In this document: piece by piece, positions 23,323 through 38,750 of the stretch | How the letters are laid out: the number at the start of each line of letters is the position of its first letter | Numbering within the stretch: position 1 is the first letter of the stretch | NCBI GenBank assembly: GCA_947482115.1 | Contig: CANKII010000003.1 | Span: forward strand, 310,001-374,000 | Reading direction: 5' to 3' | DNA from: Fibrobacterota bacterium | Lineage (GTDB): Bacteria > Fibrobacterota > Fibrobacteria > UBA11236 | Length of the DNA: 64,000 bases | The notes under the pieces: model-generated | Databases searched by the model: none | What the model saw: only the letters and a program-made list of their open reading frames with translations | What the model was told of the DNA's origin: nothing | Program-made: the position numbers and the translations under genes

Positions 23323-23967
23323 GTGCTGCCCTTCGTTACTTTGATTGCCTTTGACATCGAAACCACCGGCCTTGATGCAGCCAAGGATGATATTCTGGAA
23401 CTAGCCGGGGTAAAGTTCACTTTCGAACGGATCAACGGGAAATTGACGACGAAAGAAATCGGGCGATATCAAAGCCTTGCGAAACCGACCATGATGATTC
23501 CCGACGAAGTCACCCGCATTCACAACATCACCAATCAAATGGTGGAGGATGCGCCGAGTCTGCCATCCGTATTGCAGGGATTTTTTCGCTTCTGCGGTTT
23601 AAGTCCCATTCTCGTTGCGCATAACGCTTCATTCGACGCCTCCTTTATTGCCAAAGGCATTCGCAAACACGGACAGGTGATGCCGCAGCATCCCGTCATT
23701 GACAGCTTGAAACTCATCCGGAAAATTCTGCCGGAGTATGCGTCGCATAAACTCGGTGAGGTGGCGCGCAAGCTCGGCGATCAAACCGGACTGGCGTTGA
23801 AGCGCGAGGAATTACACCGCGCGACTTACGATTGTGTGGTACTCAAGGAAGTGCTGGGAGCCTGTTTGCCGAAACGCTATCAGGACAAGGATTTGGCAAT
23901 GGATCAGGCTGTGAAGTCGTTTGAAAGCATTCACGGCCCGGCATTGCGCTTCTCTCAATTTCCATAA
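23323..23967 (+). CDS. DEDDh 3'-5' exonuclease (DNA polymerase III epsilon-like)
   Basis: 214 residues from a GTG with GGAGAA 8 nt upstream. Exonuclease motifs: FDIETTG (Exo I, Asp and Glu), LVAHNASFDASFI (Exo II) and HRATYDCVVL (Exo III, His with Asp four residues later). The protein is a stand-alone proofreading-type nuclease; processing of DNA or RNA ends is expected. Its last 13 bp overlap the convergent btuD. Confidence 0.87.
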   Translation: MLPFVTLIAFDIETTGLDAAKDDILELAGVKFTFERINGKLTTKEIGRYQSLAKPTMMIPDEVTRIHNITNQMVEDAPSLPSVLQGFFRFCGLSPILVAHNASFDASFIAKGIRKHGQVMPQHPVIDSLKLIRKILPEYASHKLGEVARKLGDQTGLALKREELHRATYDCVVLKEVLGACLPKRYQDKDLAMDQAVKSFESIHGPALRFSQFP

Positions 23968-24716
23968 CGAAACCACGGAGCCGCTGCGAGTCCCAACGTT
24001 TCGCGACAAACCGTATGCGAAGCAACTTCGACCGGTGTGCCATAAAACCATGCGCCACCGGGAAGCAATACCAGCAAACGATCTGCAGAGTGAAAAGCCA
24101 AATCCAGATCATGGCAGGAAAACAGAATCGCTTTGTTCTCTTCTGATGCGAGACGACGCAACAAGGCGATCTCGTAAAGGCGTGAAGGTGCGTCCAGATG
24201 CGAAAGCGGTTCGTCGAGAAGCAATATCGGGGTTTCCTGCGCCAATGCACGCGCCAATCCGAGTTTTTGCCTTTCACCGTCACTAAGTTGGCTCATGGAC
24301 AAGGATGCGAGACTTGGCGTTCCCGTGATTTCCAAAGCCCGTTGAATCAAATCCCGATCTGCGTCAGAAAGGCTTCCATGCCATGGTGTATGCGGCCAAC
24401 GACCAAGCGCCACGAATTCTTCACCGCTTAACACGCCGTCACCCTGTCGCGACGATAGCGTCAGTGCCAAAAGATGCGCACGACGACGCGCTGAAATTTC
24501 ACCCACGCTTTCACCATTAAAAGATACGCGGCCCGATTCGGGAGTTCGAATCCCCGCCAATGCTTTGAGCAAAGTGGTTTTGCCGGAACCATTACGACCC
24601 AGCAACGCTACCAATTCTCCTGAGTGCAAGGAGAAATTCAAATCCTCGCATAAAATCCGTGAAGCCTTCCCTACCGAAAGGCACAATCCCTGTGTCGACA
24701 GAATGGGCGACTTCAT
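23955..24716 (-). CDS. btuD: Vitamin B12 (corrinoid) ABC transporter ATPase
   Basis: Hydrolyses ATP to drive B12 import through BtuC. 253 residues: Walker A LGRNGSGKTTLL, signature QLSDGERQKLGLARALAQ, Walker B PILLLDEPLSHLD, switch His in FSCHDLDL. The start at 24716 overlaps the btuC stop (ATGA); the frame open to 24962 is btuC in another frame. B12 specificity is inferred from the operon and its riboswitch, since FecE/HmuV-type ATPases look alike. Confidence 0.87.
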   Translation of the reverse strand: MKSPILSTQGLCLSVGKASRILCEDLNFSLHSGELVALLGRNGSGKTTLLKALAGIRTPESGRVSFNGESVGEISARRRAHLLALTLSSRQGDGVLSGEEFVALGRWPHTPWHGSLSDADRDLIQRALEITGTPSLASLSMSQLSDGERQKLGLARALAQETPILLLDEPLSHLDAPSRLYEIALLRRLASEENKAILFSCHDLDLAFHSADRLLVLLPGGAWFYGTPVEVASHTVCRETLGLAAAPWFRYGN

Positions 24717-25720
24717 GAATCGCTCCGTCTTTGGTACCGCAACAAAAGCAATAATGCCAGTGGCGCACCCAATGCCGAAACCACCACGTTCACTGGTAAC
24801 ACACGACCGGGAATCAGGATTTGTGACAAGGCATCGCACACCAGCAAACCCATTGCGCCCAATAATGCCGAACCCGGAATCAAGGCGCGCGGATCGGTTC
24901 TTCCCAAAACCCATCGCGCCACATGTGGCATTCCCAATCCAATGAAAGCGATGGGACCGCAAAAAGCCGTCACGGCTGCAGCGAGAATGCTGGCGCAGGC
25001 CGCCGTTCCCATGCGCGTCAATTTCACACGCGATCCCAAGGTGCGCGCTTCATCTTCACCCAGCATCAATGCCGTCAGGGATTTGGTGCCGAATGAGGCG
25101 GCGATCAAACCCAACACACAAACCGGAGTGAGCCAAGCCAACTGCCCCCATGTCACGCCACCCATACTGCCCAAAGTCCAGTTCACAAAGGATTGCAACG
25201 CTTCGGCTCCGCTGAAAGCTTGCATGGCCGCGATCAAAGCTCCGAGTCCGCTGGAGAGCAATAAGCCCGCAAGCAACAACGCCGCCGGACTTCGCAACAG
25301 CGGAGCCAACGCGACCAGCAACACCATCACAGCCAACGCGCCGAGCATTGCCGCACCCAACAATCCCGCTTGCGCCAGAAAGGATGGTCCCTGCCATCCG
25401 AGCAAAAGAAAACACGCGACACCAACTCCCGCACCTGCGCTAAGTCCCAGTTCATATGGACCGGCGAGTGGATTGCGAAACAAGGTTTGCATTTGAAACC
25501 CGCTCACCGCCAACACGGAACCGGCCAGCAAAGCCGCCAGCACACGCGGCAAACGAATTTCCCAAATGATTTCCTGGGCCGCCAAAGTCGAACCCGGTCC
25601 CGCCTTCAAGGCTGCAACGACTTCGGAGATTCCGAACGAAGAGGAACCGCTCAACAAATCCAATACAAATGCCAGCGCAAGAAGAGCGAATAAAAGAATG
25701 GCGACCCGACGAAATTTCAT
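24713..25720 (-). CDS. btuC: FecCD-type ABC permease, probably for vitamin B12
   Basis: 335 residues with about ten membrane helices. Family landmarks: IRLPRVLAALLAGSVLAVSGFQMQTLFRNPLAGPYELG, LGSMGGVTWGQLAW and the ATPase-coupling region AFCGPIAFIGLGMPHVARWVLG. The start at 25720 overlaps the btuF stop (ATGA), so btuF, btuC and btuD are translationally coupled. Substrate assigned from the cobalamin riboswitch upstream. Confidence 0.9.
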   Translation of the reverse strand: MKFRRVAILLFALLALAFVLDLLSGSSSFGISEVVAALKAGPGSTLAAQEIIWEIRLPRVLAALLAGSVLAVSGFQMQTLFRNPLAGPYELGLSAGAGVGVACFLLLGWQGPSFLAQAGLLGAAMLGALAVMVLLVALAPLLRSPAALLLAGLLLSSGLGALIAAMQAFSGAEALQSFVNWTLGSMGGVTWGQLAWLTPVCVLGLIAASFGTKSLTALMLGEDEARTLGSRVKLTRMGTAACASILAAAVTAFCGPIAFIGLGMPHVARWVLGRTDPRALIPGSALLGAMGLLVCDALSQILIPGRVLPVNVVVSALGAPLALLLLLRYQRRSDS

Positions 25721-26817
25721 TTGGAATTGTTCTTCGGTAAACGTCGATAATAATTTCCGGAACGGGAATCCAAAGTTCCATCCGCAATGTGCGTCAGATC
25801 GGAAAGCAGCAAATCGGGCCGGATCGCGCCTGTCTCCCAATACGCGTTTCCACCTTCCGCACAATGATGGGCATCGTTCTGATAAACATGTTCTTCGCGA
25901 AACGCCCGAAATTTGACGGAGCGCGATTCCATCGATTCCAAACCGGCGAGTGAACGCGCTTCACCCGCATTGAGCCACAAATCCGCTTCACGTCCTTTAT
26001 CCAAAACGCCTTCCAGTCCCAGAGTCAATGCGCCCGTGTGTCTGTCGTCTTCCCAGAGATAGTGAATGCCCGCATCGCGCAACAACTGCGCCACATAACT
26101 TCCCCCACCGGAAACGAACCATTGACCGCGCCAGCCCAATCCCACAATTGCAGTGGGCCGTCGTTTTCGCATCTTCATTCCGGCTTTCAAGGAGTCATAA
26201 CCATGTCGCACCACCTCAAAGAGTGAATCCGCCATGCGTTCCCTGCCGAACAGAATTCCGTAAAGACGCACCCACTCGGCACGGCCCAGCGGATTATTTT
26301 CCAGCCACTCCGGCGTGGCCAATGCGGGAATGTGCAAAGCGTTCGCCTTTGGATTCAAAGAGGAAACGCCGCCCGGCGGGTACGAATAAAGAATGACATC
26401 GGGATGCAAGGCAACCACGCGTTCCCAATCCGTTTGCGCATCGGAACCCACTTCCGCCCACGCGTGGCGTTTACCCATTGCTCGTAATGCGGAGTCGCAA
26501 ATGAAGCTCGCCTGATCAACACCCACAATGTGATCGCGCAAATTCAGCACTTCGAGATACCCCTCATGCACCGAGGTCATGCAAATCACCCGGTGCAGCG
26601 GGATGGAAAGAACTTTCACACGGCGATCAATTTTGGAAGGACAACGGCCTGCGGGACACAAGGCATAGGTTGTCGTATCCTTGTTCACAAAAATCCGCAG
26701 ACGGACAAACCCCTCCGCGGAATCCAGCGAGAAGCTCCGGGCATAACGCAAGGGCGTGGCAAAGGATGCAACTCCGAAGAGCTGCATCCCAAGTGCCATG
26801 CAAAATAACCGCCTCAT
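25717..26817 (-). CDS. btuF: Periplasmic B12-binding protein of the ABC importer
   Basis: 366 residues with signal peptide (MRRLFCMALGMQLFGVASFA). The TroA/BtuF-like bilobal fold shows HRVICMTSVHEGYLEVLNLRDHIVGVDQ, WERVVALHPDVILYSY and TAIVGLGWRGQWFVSGGGSYVAQLLRDAGIHYLW. An extra ~70-residue N-terminal stretch with CPAGRCPSK precedes the lobe. It lies 32 bp after the surface lipoprotein gene in the riboswitch operon. Confidence 0.85.
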   Translation of the reverse strand: MRRLFCMALGMQLFGVASFATPLRYARSFSLDSAEGFVRLRIFVNKDTTTYALCPAGRCPSKIDRRVKVLSIPLHRVICMTSVHEGYLEVLNLRDHIVGVDQASFICDSALRAMGKRHAWAEVGSDAQTDWERVVALHPDVILYSYPPGGVSSLNPKANALHIPALATPEWLENNPLGRAEWVRLYGILFGRERMADSLFEVVRHGYDSLKAGMKMRKRRPTAIVGLGWRGQWFVSGGGSYVAQLLRDAGIHYLWEDDRHTGALTLGLEGVLDKGREADLWLNAGEARSLAGLESMESRSVKFRAFREEHVYQNDAHHCAEGGNAYWETGAIRPDLLLSDLTHIADGTLDSRSGNYYRRLPKNNSK

Positions 26818-26849
26818 TTCGATGTTTCCATTTTTTCCAAAAGTAGGTC

Positions 26850-28187
26850 TTAGTACGCCACCTTTTTCACCTTGGTCGTGTAGCCATAATCAGTGCTGTA
26901 GGCAACATAACCCGAATGATCTCCCGCAGGGACAAAATCAAAAATATCCGCCGACAGGCTTTGCGCGGTGACCACATTTCCCGTATGAATGCGTTGTGCC
27001 AGATCGATTTTCTCCACGCCGCCCGACTGATCGTAATTCGCGATTCCGGTGATATACCATGTGCTGCCAACAACATGCGCCGAAAGGGCATTTTTAAAGT
27101 GCAGGGGGATCGTGGACGTAATCTGTTTTGTCGTCGCATTTATGACCACGACCAAACCGGTATCCACAGCGGAATACTTGTAGTTCAACCGTTGAAGGGC
27201 GACGAAAACATAACCGTTAAAGGACGTAACCCAAGCCATGCGAGGAGCCGGAGCCGCAGTATCGACAGGATGATGCGACACATACTGCGAAAGATCGATG
27301 GAATCACGTGTTCCGCCGCCCAGTTGCGTGGGATCGAGGATTAACATGTATTTCGAATCATAGCGGCTGACAAAAGCCTTGCCGTTGGATATCGCGATGT
27401 CATAAGGATTGCTTCCAGCCTGCACGTTGAATGTAACGTTCAGGTTCGGCGCATGACCCGTAAATCCCGTAAGTACGCCCGTGGTACGATCGAACAGAAA
27501 AACCTTGCCTGTGGCTGTGTCTGTAAAATTATCCGAGCCAAAGGAGATCACACTTTTCTGAATGGATTTGTTCGTGAGATCCACCGAGCTGACGGCTCCC
27601 TGAACATAATTCGTTTCCGTAATGATGAGGTGATTGTCCTGGGTAAAGGCCATGCTTGAGGGCGGCAACTGCTCGGAATAGTATGCGGTTATTTTGCCCG
27701 TGCCCGTATCAATGACCGCGACACCGGGATTGGTTGAGGATCGGTTCGCAACGAAAATCTCGCCGCCACGGACCAGCATTTGGGAGACATCTTGGAGACT
27801 GTCCTTCGACACACCCACCCAATGGGACACCGTAAGAGTCACGGATGCCGTCAGAATCGTGTCGCTTTTTGCGGTCACCGTATAGGTGGTGGTGGCGAGT
27901 TCGGCGACGGGTGTTCCTGAAATGATTCCGGTGGACGTATCCAGCGACAAACCGGAAGGAAGCGCGGGACTGATGGAATAATGATGCACCCCACCGGTGG
28001 TGAAATGCGGCGTATCGCTTGCGATGGCAACATTAGGTGCGTAAAATGCACCGGGAGTGGAATAGGAAAATCCCGACGGGGACGGTTCCTTGTTGCTGTC
28101 TTTGACGTCATTGAGAATGTCGCAGGCTACGAACAGGCTTGCGCCGAGAAGGCAGCCGGCGAGGCCTATAAAGGTTGATGTTTTCAT
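26850..28187 (-). CDS. Surface lipoprotein with Ig-like domain and beta-propeller, BtuG-like candidate
   Basis: 445 residues. Lipoprotein signal with lipobox LFVAC (Cys22). Residues ~55-120 form a putative Ig (He_PIG) domain: YSISPALPSGLSLDTSTGIISGTP and TTTYTVTAKS. From ~130 to the end are repeated blades of a YncE/quinoprotein-like propeller (VAVIDTGTGKITAYYS, SNPYDIAISNGKAFVSRY, GLVVVINATTKQITSTIPL). It sits between btuB (27 bp) and btuF (32 bp) under the cobalamin riboswitch. Bacteroides BtuG is also a surface beta-propeller lipoprotein that captures B12 and caps BtuB, so an equivalent role is the best inference. BtuG itself lacks the Ig-like domain, and orthology is not proven. Confidence 0.7.
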   Translation of the reverse strand: MKTSTFIGLAGCLLGASLFVACDILNDVKDSNKEPSPSGFSYSTPGAFYAPNVAIASDTPHFTTGGVHHYSISPALPSGLSLDTSTGIISGTPVAELATTTYTVTAKSDTILTASVTLTVSHWVGVSKDSLQDVSQMLVRGGEIFVANRSSTNPGVAVIDTGTGKITAYYSEQLPPSSMAFTQDNHLIITETNYVQGAVSSVDLTNKSIQKSVISFGSDNFTDTATGKVFLFDRTTGVLTGFTGHAPNLNVTFNVQAGSNPYDIAISNGKAFVSRYDSKYMLILDPTQLGGGTRDSIDLSQYVSHHPVDTAAPAPRMAWVTSFNGYVFVALQRLNYKYSAVDTGLVVVINATTKQITSTIPLHFKNALSAHVVGSTWYITGIANYDQSGGVEKIDLAQRIHTGNVVTAQSLSADIFDFVPAGDHSGYVAYSTDYGYTTKVKKVAY

Positions 28188-28214
28188 GTTTTTTCCTTGG
28201 GTTTGGTTTGTTGT

Positions 28215-30179
28215 TTACAGATTGATGGAAAGTGTGATGGAATAATTGCGTCCGCTGCGGATGCTATAGGCGAAATCCCGGTATTGGTTGTTAAGAAGAT
28301 TGCGGGCGTCAAAACCCAGAGAACTTCGACCCTGTCGCGCATCCAAATGAAAGCCCCAATCCTCCTGAGAAGATCGACGCGTGTCCGCAAGGTTGATGTC
28401 TCCGGAATAATAAGGACCCTGAAAATCAAGCATCGGTCCGGTGGTGATTGCAACGGCATGAAATTTGGACTTCCAGAACATTTCCACATGTCCCTCAACC
28501 GGACTTTGATACGCAGGCCAATACCCCGCAGCTGGACCGCCCAAAATGCGAAGACTTTGCAAGGTGAGCGATGTGCGCGACTCGAAATGGGAAAACCCGA
28601 TCCGATTTTCGGCTTCAACACCTACAGCCCGATAAGCAGGTCCGTTTCCATATTGGAGAAAGGGACTGGCTCCGTAGGCCTGCAAATGGATCGGATCTTC
28701 GTAGCGATGCCAGTATGCCGTGGTTTGAAATTGAAAGACGTTTTTCCGGAAGTCATGCGACAGACTCAAGGTCCGGGTTTTTTGCGGATCCAATTTCAAG
28801 TTGGGACGGATTCCATTGTTGTCTCCCAATAATTCCTCCGAGGAAGGCGCCTGTTCTTCATAACGGCCCAACGCTTCAAAGGTCCCGATAGGTGTACGCC
28901 ATTGGATTCCACCGCGCAAACTCAACGGCATCAACATCCGTGATGTGGCCGCGATGGAATCCGGATTCGGAAAATCACTTATCCGGCTGGCATCGAATTG
29001 AACCCATGAACCGCGAACGTCTTCGGTCAACGCCAAGTCTCTCGTGATTTTTTCGCGCAAGGCCGTCCCCAATTGAACTTCCTTACGAGTGGCGGAAGGT
29101 GAAACGAAAGGCCGATTATAGGGCGTGGCCGTGGGCTCCACATTTTCATGGCTCACGCGTGTGTCCGCGCCTAAAACCAGTTTTTGCATTAACGGAATCG
29201 ATGCTCGCAGATCCGCTTCCAACGCGGTGGCAGCACGCGCTGCTTCATAGGATGCATAACCCAAAGACTGGCCGGGGTCACGATAAGAGTCGTTGAAATG
29301 ATGCGCTTGCACTCCAGCTCCCACTTCAGCATGACCCGGATACGCTTCGATGCGGTAAGCACCCATCCATTCATTATGCCGCGTGTATGCTTGCGCATTG
29401 AAAACTGTGTTGGGAATGCCGGGATATTCCTTGAGGTAATCCAGCCACAATACCGACAGGGTTTGATTGAAGGAAAAATTGTCCTTGCGCAGCGAAGCAC
29501 GCGCGCCACGACTCCAATAGGCATTGTTGTTCATGCGCTGCCACGCATCATCTGCGTTGTAATACACCGTTCCATTATCGGTAAAAAACGGATAATCGTT
29601 TTGGGCTGTTTGGCCTTCGGCTCCCACCGTCCATTTCCATACCTTTCCACCATGCACCGTCGCCGCACCTTCGACCGTGGAGAAACTGGCGGCGCGACTG
29701 CGAAGTTCCGCATGACTCGAATCGGAAGATTGCGTGGACAAATCGATGCGCGCCAGTGAACCCGGATCTCCCGCTCCAAACGCATCAAAACCGGAACGCG
29801 CTTCGACACCGGAGAACCACAACAAAGGCCATTTTGCGAGATCAGGATTTTGACCTTCCTGATTCAACCGCATTCCATCGAGATAAATGTCCACGGCGGA
29901 AGCGTCCGAACCGCGGAAACTCAATTCGGAATAACCGCCCAACCCGCCTTCTTCGCGCACGTGAAATCCGGGAAGCGTTTTAATTGCATCTTCCAAGGAC
30001 GCAAAACGCTGCAACTCACTTTCATCCAAACGATGAGTATTGGCAGGACCGGATTCCACACGCTGGCCCTTGGCACTGCTTTGTGGCAGATCCACGGTAT
30101 CGCGATCGGTGGCTTGAACAGGTGAAAATATTCCACAAAACAGCAGCGCTACCATGCAAAATGTCACGCAAAACGACAT
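28215..30179 (-). CDS. btuB: TonB-dependent outer-membrane receptor for vitamin B12
   Basis: 654 residues. The start at 30179 is chosen because a signal peptide follows at once (CVTFCMVALLFCGIFSPVQA); upstream codons to 30392 lie in the riboswitch leader. The plug domain shows LQRFASLEDAIKTLPGFHVREEGG and ELSFRGSDASAVDIYLDGMRLN. The 22-strand-type barrel ends with YRDFAYSIRSGRNYSITLSINL, an aromatic-poor but typical last strand. It imports B12 with TonB energy. Specificity is strongly supported by the leader riboswitch and by btuFCD in the same operon. Confidence 0.9.
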   Translation of the reverse strand: MSFCVTFCMVALLFCGIFSPVQATDRDTVDLPQSSAKGQRVESGPANTHRLDESELQRFASLEDAIKTLPGFHVREEGGLGGYSELSFRGSDASAVDIYLDGMRLNQEGQNPDLAKWPLLWFSGVEARSGFDAFGAGDPGSLARIDLSTQSSDSSHAELRSRAASFSTVEGAATVHGGKVWKWTVGAEGQTAQNDYPFFTDNGTVYYNADDAWQRMNNNAYWSRGARASLRKDNFSFNQTLSVLWLDYLKEYPGIPNTVFNAQAYTRHNEWMGAYRIEAYPGHAEVGAGVQAHHFNDSYRDPGQSLGYASYEAARAATALEADLRASIPLMQKLVLGADTRVSHENVEPTATPYNRPFVSPSATRKEVQLGTALREKITRDLALTEDVRGSWVQFDASRISDFPNPDSIAATSRMLMPLSLRGGIQWRTPIGTFEALGRYEEQAPSSEELLGDNNGIRPNLKLDPQKTRTLSLSHDFRKNVFQFQTTAYWHRYEDPIHLQAYGASPFLQYGNGPAYRAVGVEAENRIGFSHFESRTSLTLQSLRILGGPAAGYWPAYQSPVEGHVEMFWKSKFHAVAITTGPMLDFQGPYYSGDINLADTRRSSQEDWGFHLDARQGRSSLGFDARNLLNNQYRDFAYSIRSGRNYSITLSINL

Positions 30180-30189
30180 GCGCCCTTTC

Positions 30190-30210
30190 CCCGTGTGTCT
30201 TGGACACGGG
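30190..30210 (-). promoter_or_regulatory. Hairpin between riboswitch and btuB start (possible expression platform)
   Basis: A 7-bp stem CCCGTGT/ACACGGG with a 7-nt loop ends about 10 nt before the btuB ATG. Its 3' arm runs into GGGGAAAGGG, the likely ribosome site. A B12-dependent switch could use it to hide or expose translation initiation. No T-run follows, so a terminator is unlikely. Confidence 0.45.
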
Positions 30211-30302
30211 AGGAGTGATGCCTTCGAATGCGGGGGAGTTTGGAAAGTACGGGGAAAAGACACCCGTAGCCATCCACCCTCGCGCCCGAAGAGCAGTTGA
30301 TA

Positions 30303-30505
30303 ACCTACAGGTGAGTCTTCTGGCTTGCGGTTTGAGGCGTGTGCCCCGAATCTCTCCGGCCTTCCCATCCTTGCGGACAGTGGCCTGTTCACCTTGCACC
30401 GAACGGTGGAGAAATCCTTAACCGCTTACAGCGACGAGCTCGCTCCCGATTCTAACGGGATTCCTCGTTATGTCCGCACCATGGCGGACTTCCTATAAGC
30501 GGACA
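30303..30505 (-). ncRNA. Cobalamin riboswitch
   Basis: Reading the minus strand 5' to 3', the conserved blocks of the cobalamin aptamer appear in order: GAATCCCG with AGAATCGGG, CGCTGTAAGCGG (30422-30434), GCCACTG (30378-30384), GGGAAGGC (30359-30366), and the B12 box AGCCAGAAGACTCACCTG (30308-30325). They follow the RF00174 arrangement, and the leader ends ~125 nt before btuB. In known examples cobalamin binding lowers expression of the downstream transport genes. The five-gene operon downstream fits. Confidence 0.93.
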
Positions 30506-30542
30506 GGAAGATAATTAATGGCAGGATGCAAACGACAACGGA

Positions 30543-32093
30543 TTATTCCTCCGCCCGCAAGGCGCGCAAATCGGTTTTACCCTTGTAAAAAACCTTGAAA
30601 GCGATGTTTTCACCAATCGCGAGTGTTTTCACGGCATCGAGAAGTTGCTTGGGTTGCTTCACTTCCTGAAAAGAAACATCGGCCTTGCGTTTGTAATCGG
30701 TGATGACCATGCCCTCCAGCATTCCGTTTTCTGCTGCGGGGGATCCGTCCATCACTTCGACCAGCACCACCCCGGAAACTTCTTTCGAGATTTGATACTT
30801 GGCACGCGCATCCGTGTCCACGGCAACAAAACGAAGACCCAGTTTGCGGGAGCTAAAACCACCCGAACCATCATCCCCCTCGGATGCCGCAGGGGTTGAA
30901 TCATTCTCATCTTCGCCATCGCCCGGCTTCGCTCCGACTTTCACATCCAAAACCATTTTCTTTCCATCACGCCAGATGTCAAAGGCGTATTTATTGCCGG
31001 GTTTTAGATCCGCCACATGATTGCGCAAGTCCGCTGCATCCTGAACCGTGGCACCGTCGACCTTGAGGATAATGTCCCCGCTTTTAAGTGCGCTCTTGGA
31101 TGCCGGAGAATTGGGAGCGATGTCGCGGACAAGGCATCCCTGCGGACTTGGAAGCCCCAAGGCCCCCGCCAGATTTTCATCCACATTGTCAATGCCGATG
31201 CCGAGAAAACCGCGCGTCACCTTGCCTTCATAAATCAAATCCTCCGCCACCTTGACCGCCATGTTGACGGGAATGGCGAAGCTCACACCCATGAAGCCGC
31301 CATTGCGGGTGTAGATGCTGGAGTTGATGCCAACAACTTCTCCGCGCAAATTGACCAGCGGCCCTCCGGAATTTCCGGGATTGACCGCGGCGTCGGTTTG
31401 AATAAAATCCTGATATGAGTCTCCACCGAATTGATCGCGACGGCCCTTTGCCGAGACAATGCCGGTGGTCACCGTATTTTGCAATGCAAACGGATTTCCT
31501 ATCGCGAGAACCCACTCCCCTATTTGCAACTTGCGCGAGTCTCCGAAATCCACCGGTTTCAGATCTTCCAAGGGCGCGTCGATTTGGATTACGGCCACAT
31601 CCACTTTTTTGTCCACGCCCACAACTTTTGCGACATAGGTTTTGTTGTTGCCGAGTGCAACCTTCACAATGTCTGCGCCTTCCACGACGTGTGCGTTGGT
31701 GAAGATGTATCCCTCTTTCGCCACGATAAATCCGGAACCGCCTCCGAGGGGAATATTGCGCTTGGGGGAATTGTCTTCGGGCGCATTCGGTTGTTGCGGC
31801 ATCCCAAAAAATTCAAAGAGCGGATTTTGCTGTAGTTGCTGTTGCTGGCTCCATTTCTTTTCCGTGGTAATGGACACGACACTGGGTGTCACCGCCTCTA
31901 CCACCTTGCCGAACAGGCGGTTCAACTCATCCACTTTTCCGCCATCAGTTTGAGCACCCGCTCCTTTACCCAATTCAATGCTTCCACGCTTGGGCCGGGC
32001 AGACTCCTTTGAATCCTTCGAAAAACCCGTCAAAGGCAGTATGGCGCTGAATACACAAACAGTTAAAAACGGTTTCCATCGAATGTTTTGCAT
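30543..32093 (-). CDS. htrA: HtrA/DegP-family periplasmic serine protease
   Basis: 516 residues: signal peptide, trypsin-like domain with triad His135 (NAHVV), Asp165 (VDVAVI) and Ser242 (GNSGGP), then two PDZ domains (~300-385 and ~410-510). It degrades or refolds misfolded envelope proteins. Residues 82-112 form a glutamine- and proline-rich LA-loop-like insert (QQQQLQQN), as in DegP. An acidic linker, DGEDENDSTPAASEGDDGSGG, separates the PDZ domains. Confidence 0.94.
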   Translation of the reverse strand: MQNIRWKPFLTVCVFSAILPLTGFSKDSKESARPKRGSIELGKGAGAQTDGGKVDELNRLFGKVVEAVTPSVVSITTEKKWSQQQQLQQNPLFEFFGMPQQPNAPEDNSPKRNIPLGGGSGFIVAKEGYIFTNAHVVEGADIVKVALGNNKTYVAKVVGVDKKVDVAVIQIDAPLEDLKPVDFGDSRKLQIGEWVLAIGNPFALQNTVTTGIVSAKGRRDQFGGDSYQDFIQTDAAVNPGNSGGPLVNLRGEVVGINSSIYTRNGGFMGVSFAIPVNMAVKVAEDLIYEGKVTRGFLGIGIDNVDENLAGALGLPSPQGCLVRDIAPNSPASKSALKSGDIILKVDGATVQDAADLRNHVADLKPGNKYAFDIWRDGKKMVLDVKVGAKPGDGEDENDSTPAASEGDDGSGGFSSRKLGLRFVAVDTDARAKYQISKEVSGVVLVEVMDGSPAAENGMLEGMVITDYKRKADVSFQEVKQPKQLLDAVKTLAIGENIAFKVFYKGKTDLRALRAEE

Positions 32094-37196: not shown

Positions 37197-38750
37197 ATGA
37201 AGGTTTTGTTTCTCAATCCCCCCTATTTCGCGATGTTTTCGCGGGAGTCACGCAGCCCTAGCGTGACCAAGTCCAGTACCCTGTACTGGCCTATGTTCAT
37301 GTGCTATGCAGCCGGCTGCGTCGAGGAGGATGGGAACGAAATTTTGGTGCTGGATTCCCCGGCTATGGATCTGGACTTGGAAGCCACTTTGGCAAAAATC
37401 AAGGCTTTCCAGCCGGAATTTGCAGTGTTAAACACTTCAACTCCTTCCATTAATAATGATATGCGCGTTGGCAAAGCCATCAAGGAAGCCATCGGTTGCC
37501 CTGTCGCCATGATGGGTACCCATGCCACGGCGGAACCCATTGAAATTTTGGAACGTGAATCCACCATTGACTATGTCATCGTCGGTGAAGCTGATTACAC
37601 CGCCCGTGAGTTGGTGCGCCATGTGCGCGGCGACGGTCCGGATCACCCCTCCAAGGTTTTGGGCATTGCCTACCGCGCTGGAGAAGCGCTCACTAAAAAT
37701 ACGGATCGACCCAAAATCGAAGACATCAACACTCTTCCGTGGGTAAGCAAGGTGTATCGCAAGCATCTTTTCTCCTGCTACAAGCGTTATTTCTACGGTG
37801 CGAACATCAACCCCCTTATTGTGATTCTTTCCGGTCGCGGCTGTCCCTTTCGCTGCACCTATTGCGTCATTCCGCAAACCCTCACCGGGCACACCTATCG
37901 CAAGCGCGACGTGGCCGATGTGGTGGATGAAATGGCCTACATCAAAGCCTCCTTCCCGGATCTCGGTGAAATCTTTTTCGAAGACGACACGTTCACGGCG
38001 CATCCGAGCCGGACCGTGGAATTGTGCGAAGAAGTCATTCGTCGCGGCCTCAAGGTCACCTGGTCTGCCAATGCCCGCGCCGATGTGAAAGCCGACGTGC
38101 TGGCCGTCATGAAAAGGGCCGGTTGTCGCGAACTGTGCGTGGGCTTTGAGTCCTGCTCTACCGACGTGCTCAAGAATGTGAAAAAGGGCCTTGCTGACGG
38201 CATGGCTCAACGTTTCATGGAAGGGGCCAACAAGGCCGGCATTCTCATTCATGGCTGCTTCATGGTGGGTAATTTGGGTGACACTCCCGAAACATTGGAA
38301 GCCACCCTGCAATTCGCAAAGATGTTGAATCCAAACACCGCTCAGTTTTACCCCATCATGGCGTATCCCGGTACCACAGCTTACGACGAAGCCAAGGAGC
38401 GTGGAGAACTGGCGTCGGATGATTACGATCTCTGGCTGGACAAAGATGGTCAGCACAATACCACGGTCATCCGCAAGGGACTCACTTCGCAGCAATTGGT
38501 GAACTTCTGCGACAAGGCGCGCCGCGAATTCTATTTGCGTCCGAAGTACATCTGGACACAAGCCATCATGGCTTTGACCAATGGCCGTGAGCGCTATCGA
38601 GTGATTCGTGGTGCCAGCACGTTGTTCAAGCATCTCTTCCGCAAGCATGGCGCATTGCAGGAATCCAGCGGTTACAGCCGTCCCAAGGAGCCTTCGGCCA
38701 AGGATATCGCACTGGAAGCCGCCAAGCATAGCGTTACCGCCGACGTGTGA
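37197..38750 (+). CDS. B12-binding radical SAM protein (HpnJ/P-methylase-like family)
   Basis: 517 residues: N-terminal cobalamin-binding Rossmann domain (~1-150: VLFLNPPYFAMFSRESRS, FAVLNTSTPSINNDMR, MGTHATAEP, DYVIVGEADYTARELV), then the radical SAM domain with the cluster CPFRCTYC near residues 219-226, followed by IFFEDDTFT, CVGFESCSTDVLKNVKKG and GCFMVGNLGDTPETLEATLQFA. Related enzymes carry out methylations or ring rearrangements, for example in hopanoid and antibiotic pathways; the substrate is unknown. The stop overlaps purN (GTGTGA). It depends on cobalamin, which the operon at 23955-30505 would import. Confidence 0.85.
   Translation: MKVLFLNPPYFAMFSRESRSPSVTKSSTLYWPMFMCYAAGCVEEDGNEILVLDSPAMDLDLEATLAKIKAFQPEFAVLNTSTPSINNDMRVGKAIKEAIGCPVAMMGTHATAEPIEILERESTIDYVIVGEADYTARELVRHVRGDGPDHPSKVLGIAYRAGEALTKNTDRPKIEDINTLPWVSKVYRKHLFSCYKRYFYGANINPLIVILSGRGCPFRCTYCVIPQTLTGHTYRKRDVADVVDEMAYIKASFPDLGEIFFEDDTFTAHPSRTVELCEEVIRRGLKVTWSANARADVKADVLAVMKRAGCRELCVGFESCSTDVLKNVKKGLADGMAQRFMEGANKAGILIHGCFMVGNLGDTPETLEATLQFAKMLNPNTAQFYPIMAYPGTTAYDEAKERGELASDDYDLWLDKDGQHNTTVIRKGLTSQQLVNFCDKARREFYLRPKYIWTQAIMALTNGRERYRVIRGASTLFKHLFRKHGALQESSGYSRPKEPSAKDIALEAAKHSVTADV

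Follow-up and report, generated by a model that had tools for sequence, protein, structure and literature searches.

A riboswitch-led corrinoid import operon with a probable BtuG-like, circularly permuted lid in Fibrobacterota

The closest described systems are BtuB2G2 and BtuB3G3 of Bacteroides thetaiotaomicron (PMC6143338, PMC10404256; PDB 8bmx, 8p97, 3dsm), where, as in the Fibrobacterota system reported here, a riboswitch-controlled locus carries a BtuB gene beside the gene of a seven-bladed propeller lipoprotein with a negatively charged propeller. The BtuG2 propeller is acidic (-18) and an electrostatic attraction has been described; the linker between its lipid anchor and the propeller was proposed to act as a hinge together with EL2 (PMC10404256). 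According to PMC6143338, BtuG occurs only in Bacteroidetes, and PMC10404256 regards TonB transporters capped by a lipoprotein as seemingly confined to that phylum. In the SusCD pedal-bin transporters, too, a lipoprotein serves as the lid of a TonB-dependent transporter, but the fold of SusD is unrelated to the propeller lid and its substrate is a glycan (PMC10404256 and general knowledge). The BtuB-BtuFCD system of E. coli comprises the receptor, binding protein, permease and ATPase families which are also found in the operon described below, whereas it has no surface lipoprotein lid and its genes are arranged differently. A riboswitch is carried by E. coli btuB as well.

Here we report on a window of 64,000 nucleotides from a Fibrobacterota bacterium of the lineage UBA11236 (GCA_947482115.1, contig CANKII010000003.1, positions 310,001-374,000), the genome of which has 2.72 Mb and is 99.4% complete. 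The window very probably holds a corrinoid import operon under a cobalamin riboswitch, with a BtuG-like lid which is probably a distant relative of Bacteroides BtuG and has a permuted ring. This kind of system is already known; what is new to our knowledge is that it occurs throughout a second phylum, has an Ig spacer and has been permuted recurrently, and no literature joining BtuG with Fibrobacter was found in a search of openly accessible journal papers.

The operon, its riboswitch and its host

The features of the operon are given here with their positions in the window:

23955..24716, minus strand: btuD, ABC ATPase (PF00005, E 5.4e-28; ATGA overlap with btuC)
24713..25720, minus strand: btuC, permease of the FecCD type (PF01032, E 3e-76; ATGA overlap with btuF)
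25717..26817, minus strand: btuF, periplasmic B12-binding protein (PF01497, Peripla_BP_2, E 2.3e-19)
26850..28187, minus strand: gene of the predicted BtuG-like surface lipoprotein, 445 aa (lipobox LFVAC, Cys22; He_PIG; YVTN-type repeats; profile A1)
28215..30182, minus strand: btuB, TonB-dependent B12 receptor, 655 aa, with signal peptide (Plug PF07715; family profile)
30182..30267, minus strand: probable expression platform between aptamer and btuB start (complementary segments and a competing hairpin)
30293..30511, minus strand: cobalamin riboswitch aptamer RF00174 (cmscan 85.4 bits, E 1.3e-19, full model 1-189, gathering 31.5)

The sequence-only reading had proposed a riboswitch-led, complete B12 uptake operon at 23955-30505, and both the operon and its coordinates hold. 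Searching the riboswitch region with RF00174 gave a match at 85.4 bits against the gathering score of 31.5, the single one in the window and in the whole genome, and five same-strand genes recognised by family models follow in the order btuB, lipoprotein gene, btuF, btuC and btuD. The gaps amount to 27 nt between btuB and the lipoprotein gene and to 32 nt between the lipoprotein gene and btuF, while the last three genes are joined by two ATGA overlaps (btuF/btuC and btuC/btuD), just as had been noted before. The spread of this architecture over the phylum, the Ig spacer of the lipoprotein and the permuted ring did not form part of the sequence-only reading.

For the permease the best NCBIfam model is BtuC, with a score under its equivalog cut-off, and the PF01497 binding protein is encoded by a single copy in the genome. 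Sharing one predicted transcription unit, the PF01497, PF01032 and PF00005 genes would together provide a BtuFCD importer, which in contrast to BtuB2G2/BtuB3G3 is encoded directly after the lipoprotein gene in one operon.

Compared with the PDB on its own, the window receptor is weakly BtuB-like (E 5e-7), and as a single sequence it scores far below the NCBIfam BtuB equivalog cut-offs. With profile A5, built from 25 receptors from riboswitch loci of Fibrobacterota, the ten best PDB sequences are all BtuB entries from B. thetaiotaomicron and E. coli (E 8e-49 to 2e-46), followed by the TonB-linked receptor 9gbc (1.5e-44) and then by YncD (1e-39), the next named receptor after BtuB. Because profile A5 ranks BtuB first, the window receptor is assigned by its family to BtuB.

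In the probable expression platform the segment 5' ACGGGUGUCUUUUCCCCGU is predicted to pair with ACACGGGGAAAGGG (-28.8 kcal/mol), which contains the likely btuB ribosome-binding site. A competing hairpin, CCCGUGUC/GACACACGGG (-13 kcal/mol), overlaps the segment with the ribosome-binding site. These alternative pairings suggest that the riboswitch controls btuB at the level of translation.

The genome encodes the B12-dependent MetH as well as TonB, and had no match for CbiC, the sole biosynthesis marker searched; judged by this one marker, the host looks like a B12 user which depends on uptake. The B12-binding domain PF02310 is matched in this genome by MetH and by one further protein of 517 aa, encoded in the window at 37197-38750 (plus strand), 7 kb from the B12 operon. 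The latter contains a CPFRCTYC motif and is probably a radical-SAM enzyme. Immediately upstream of the riboswitch, a gene of the same orientation (30543-32093, minus strand) looks like that of a DegP/HtrA protease.

With ample B12, the btuB ribosome-binding site would be hidden by the riboswitch. Under B12 shortage the lipoprotein would be synthesised and brought to the outer face, where its lipid anchor and the Ig spacer would tether it. By analogy with BtuB2G2 (PMC10404256), the cavity at the centre of the propeller would catch B12, and the lipoprotein, acting as a lid on BtuB, would hand it over, whereupon TonB-driven import would bring the vitamin to the periplasm and BtuF would deliver it to BtuCD.

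Likeness of the lipoprotein to BtuG

Within the lipoprotein gene the following parts can be distinguished:

27828..28067, minus strand: residues 41-120, the Ig-like He_PIG domain separating the lipid anchor from the propeller (PF05345, E 5.7e-10)
27648..27833, minus strand: blade 7 in its new, N-terminal place, about residues 119-180 (tandem-target test; doubled profile)
26853..27647, minus strand: blades 1-6 of the propeller (AF2 on residues 118-445; Foldseek 8ptf)

The lipobox Cys22 is invariant in alignment A1. The He_PIG domain is missing from the same-genus permutants L033 (alignment A1) and L034 (from its sequence). No BtuH domain was found in the window lipoprotein. He_PIG Ig-like domains are abundant elsewhere in the genome (e.g. 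G000:C13:16334-18907 and G000:C2:344003-344749), the longest of the open frames that contain them reaching about 2,300 aa. The segment between anchor and propeller is very variable in the family: it is the He_PIG domain in the window protein and consists of Ser-rich repeats in Fibrobacter (e.g. L049), while in L064 another Ig-like domain can be recognised by eye. In L074 a carboxypeptidase-regulatory-like segment precedes the propeller, without an obvious lipobox.

That a propeller lipoprotein adjoins BtuB, as had been proposed, agrees with the family models, which find in this gene the He_PIG domain and, for the propeller part, weak propeller matches. AF2 on the full-length single sequence gave a pLDDT of 31.8, and the model was therefore built from residues 118-445 together with 34 named relatives (pLDDT 77.8, pTM 0.79). 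Its strands are consistent with seven blades, so that structure prediction also yields a seven-bladed propeller. Neither a missing RF00174 match nor a fold other than a propeller, two outcomes named beforehand as refuting the proposal, was thus observed. The best solved structure found by Foldseek for this model is 8ptf, BtuG2 with cyanocobalamin (CNCbl; E 2.9e-10), but the scores of YncE, Fbw7 and BamB are close behind. Fold alone thus has no family specificity, and we rejected the fold comparison as proof of BtuG membership, since generic propellers score alike.

Profile A1, made from 32 lipoprotein relatives, ranks BtuG first: its top twelve distinct PDB sequences are all BtuG (E 6.5e-12 to 9.2e-11), and the archaeal YVTN protein 1l0q (1.4e-9) and E. 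coli YncE (9e-5) come after them. YncD/YncE and YVTN propellers, although of the same propeller superfamily, have lower profile scores than BtuB and BtuG. The single window lipoprotein had no BtuG match in the PDB. When segments of BtuG1-3 were compared by HHalign with eight members from Fibrobacterota, the outcome was 97.7%, colinear over 201 columns. In the reverse search with a BtuG profile the btuG-like locus ranked first in seven of the ten genomes having any match, while in the genome of the window the BtuG-only profile found nothing. In view of the family-profile likeness and of this empty reverse search we call the protein BtuG-like rather than a proven orthologue; it is a probable distant homologue of BtuG. 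The expectation that a BtuG-type architecture would be found outside Bacteroidetes is supported, with the likeness to BtuG visible for family profiles but not for the single protein.

Apart from the phylum, the Fibrobacterota proteins differ from Bacteroides BtuG by an identity of about 11-23% in the comparisons made and by different pocket residues. W194, W272 and Y316 of the BtuG2 pocket align in the Fibrobacterota profile to the Q of LQR, the D position after LGG and the G of FGG, which lie at or beside conserved Fibrobacterota motifs. Pocket residues vary inside BtuG too, as according to the printed alignments W194 is not kept in BtuG1 and W272 is not kept in BtuG3. The different residues at these positions suggest that the details of the presumed B12 binding probably differ from BtuG2. 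The mature lipoproteins are net negative in 62 of 63 cases (median -21; window protein -8), which is in line with an electrostatic attraction of the BtuG2 type. At positions +2 to +11 after the lipobox Cys, D/E make up 22% and S/N 30% (63 family proteins, computed on the family alone).

Pairing with riboswitch and btuB across the phylum

The host had been suspected to belong to an FCB phylum other than Bacteroidota, and this proved right: it is a member of Fibrobacterota, and so are all of the 41 named relatives which a scan of GTDB-scale contigs, with an 8-row alignment as query, gave for the lipoprotein family. The family profile finds a related propeller in 155 of 168 Fibrobacterota species and in 88 of the 89 good-quality genomes, and RF00174 is found in 151 of the 168 species. 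Both riboswitch and propeller places were listed for 119 genomes. In 112 of these a cobalamin riboswitch on the same strand precedes the start of the propeller by 2.0-5.2 kb (median 2187 bp); in the seven exceptions riboswitch and propeller are on different contigs among the places listed. This number and the narrow spacing led us to reject a chance co-location. The loci that were opened show the riboswitch followed by the TonB-dependent receptor (btuB) and the lipoprotein, in several cases then BtuD and BtuC. Because the three are paired in almost all Fibrobacterota genomes, among them those of Fibrobacter from gut and rumen, which live alongside Bacteroidota, surface capture of B12 would be wider, and perhaps older, than described.

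The trees of BtuB and of the BtuG-like proteins are largely congruent and have two main divisions, with a few deep placements that differ (e.g. the f1-g2 group), as if the receptor-lipoprotein pair had been passed on as a unit. One genome of the genus to which the window belongs (G161, locus L032) has a btuB and a lipoprotein gene which both belong to the other main division, a finding suggesting that the two may also have been replaced as one unit in evolution.

With a genuine B12 operon, the lipoprotein might still be an unrelated YVTN/YncE-type propeller which was recruited independently beside BtuB, its likeness to BtuG being parallel. The archaeal 1l0q lies about 7 bits under the best BtuG in the profile search, Foldseek does not separate BtuG from YncE and the BtuG2 pocket residues differ, all of which would fit such a recruitment. 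We nevertheless consider it unlikely, because all of the top twelve PDB sequences are BtuG, the profile-profile comparison is colinear over 201 columns, the BtuG profile ranks the btuG-like locus first in 7/10 genomes with a match, and the gene position is identical in a related phylum. Still less probable is a lipoprotein which faces the periplasm, or which serves as a scaffold or assembly factor for BtuB, instead of a B12-capturing lid. Such a role disagrees with the strict pairing with a riboswitch-controlled btuB and with the profile likeness to BtuG in first place; moreover, the acidic, Ser/Asn-rich stretch after the Cys (again from the family alone) and the long tethers, whether Ser-rich or Ig, would fit a display on the cell surface. 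In its favour one can name BamB, a periplasm-facing propeller lipoprotein, among the Foldseek matches, and the fact that the surface export is a prediction. A surface lid related to BtuG remains the reading we prefer.

Circular permutation of the propeller

In most relatives of the window lipoprotein the blades are in canonical order, with blade 7 at the C-terminus. The order in the window protein is 7-1-2-3-4-5-6, and its N-terminal blade, like that of L033 (and L034), corresponds to the C-terminal blade of the canonical relatives (GEIFVANRSSTNPGVAVID...LPPSSMAF versus TYLYVGDRSLSDPGVIVID...LPPFDLAVL). Together with the Ig spacer, the circularly permuted propeller distinguishes the window protein from the lipoproteins of BtuB2G2 and BtuB3G3.

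It could be argued that the permuted order is a repeat-caused alignment artefact, i.e. a shift by one blade, as the blades resemble each other and MAFFT slipped one blade in some mixed fragment alignments, which were left out of the analysis. Blade 7, however, has a signature of its own (VGDRS..PG...ID....LPP..LA), which is present at the N-terminus of the window protein and missing from its C-terminus. When canonical relatives are supplied as tandem copies, the alignment score of the window protein rises by as much as 64 points, compared with at most 9 among 435 pairs of canonical proteins. A doubled profile (337 positions) matches it at h281-603 with 142.7 bits versus 112.1 for the single profile, a gain of 30.6 bits; the gains range from 22.5 to 30.6 bits in the three-member clade of the window and from 11 to 134 bits over 29 permutants, but from -7.5 to +1.8 in 46 canonical proteins. 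An artefact is thus highly improbable and we treat the permutation as genuine. That the reading frames around the new ends are complete, including lipobox and stop codon, speaks against an assembly error.

A second form, with blade 3 first and blades 1-2 last, was found in 26 of 79 loci (gains 11-134 bits), a sample which was enriched for suspected permutants and gives no frequency estimate for the phylum. Of these loci 21 represent one Fibrobacter-type clade and the others come from single genomes that belong to other groups (G165, G013, G015, G026 and G029). On the receptor tree, which cannot be biased by a permutation of the lipoprotein, the blade-3 form needs five changes and the blade-7 form one, and the starred branches force the same numbers. 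The lipoprotein tree, for which the sequences were rotated in silico first, gives six changes for the blade-3 form, with four forced by starred branches. Both trees require that the blade-3-first permutation arose repeatedly, the exact number of origins being uncertain due to the long branches L071 and L084. As canonical Fibrobacterota members have the blade order of Bacteroides BtuG, with which they align colinearly, the canonical order is probably ancestral.

The linker of the Fibrobacter form joins the ring at blade 3, in most cases following a Ser-rich tether of about 80-165 residues, and that of the window protein joins it at blade 7 after the 80-residue Ig domain. The entry point of the tether is thus movable in evolution. 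The median tether length is 121 residues in blade-3-first proteins versus 19 in the others. A functional rule for tether length was dropped, because the long tethers mostly belong to one Ser-rich Fibrobacter clade and the other blade-3-first forms have 14-34 residues.

Three further loci (L174:1-4501 of G011, L155:1-4401 of G006 and L154:1-4501 of G037) have two N-terminal segments swapped, with the profile order 28-67, 3-27, 68-335; the middle piece of L154 was not scored. In these forms, each placed among canonical relatives, blades 1 and 2 have exchanged strands, which is not a circular permutation.

Taken jointly, we lean, with some reserve, towards lidded B12 transport being ancestral to Fibrobacterota, possibly to the ancestor shared with Bacteroidota, combined with a recurrent natural circular permutation of the lid: about five blade-3, one blade-7 and three strand-swapped origins, each kept beside btuB. 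If this is true, the ring would stay closed and the pocket unchanged, while the permutations would shift the entry point of the tether and thereby re-site the tether or hinge. Repeated permutation at one gene position would offer a natural permutant series for relating the tether entry point to lid function, and for studying how evolution cuts and re-closes propellers.

At locus L172 (G132:C30:5340-7947) two canonical BtuG-like propellers are encoded side by side; a circular permutation could be preceded by a tandem duplication of this type.
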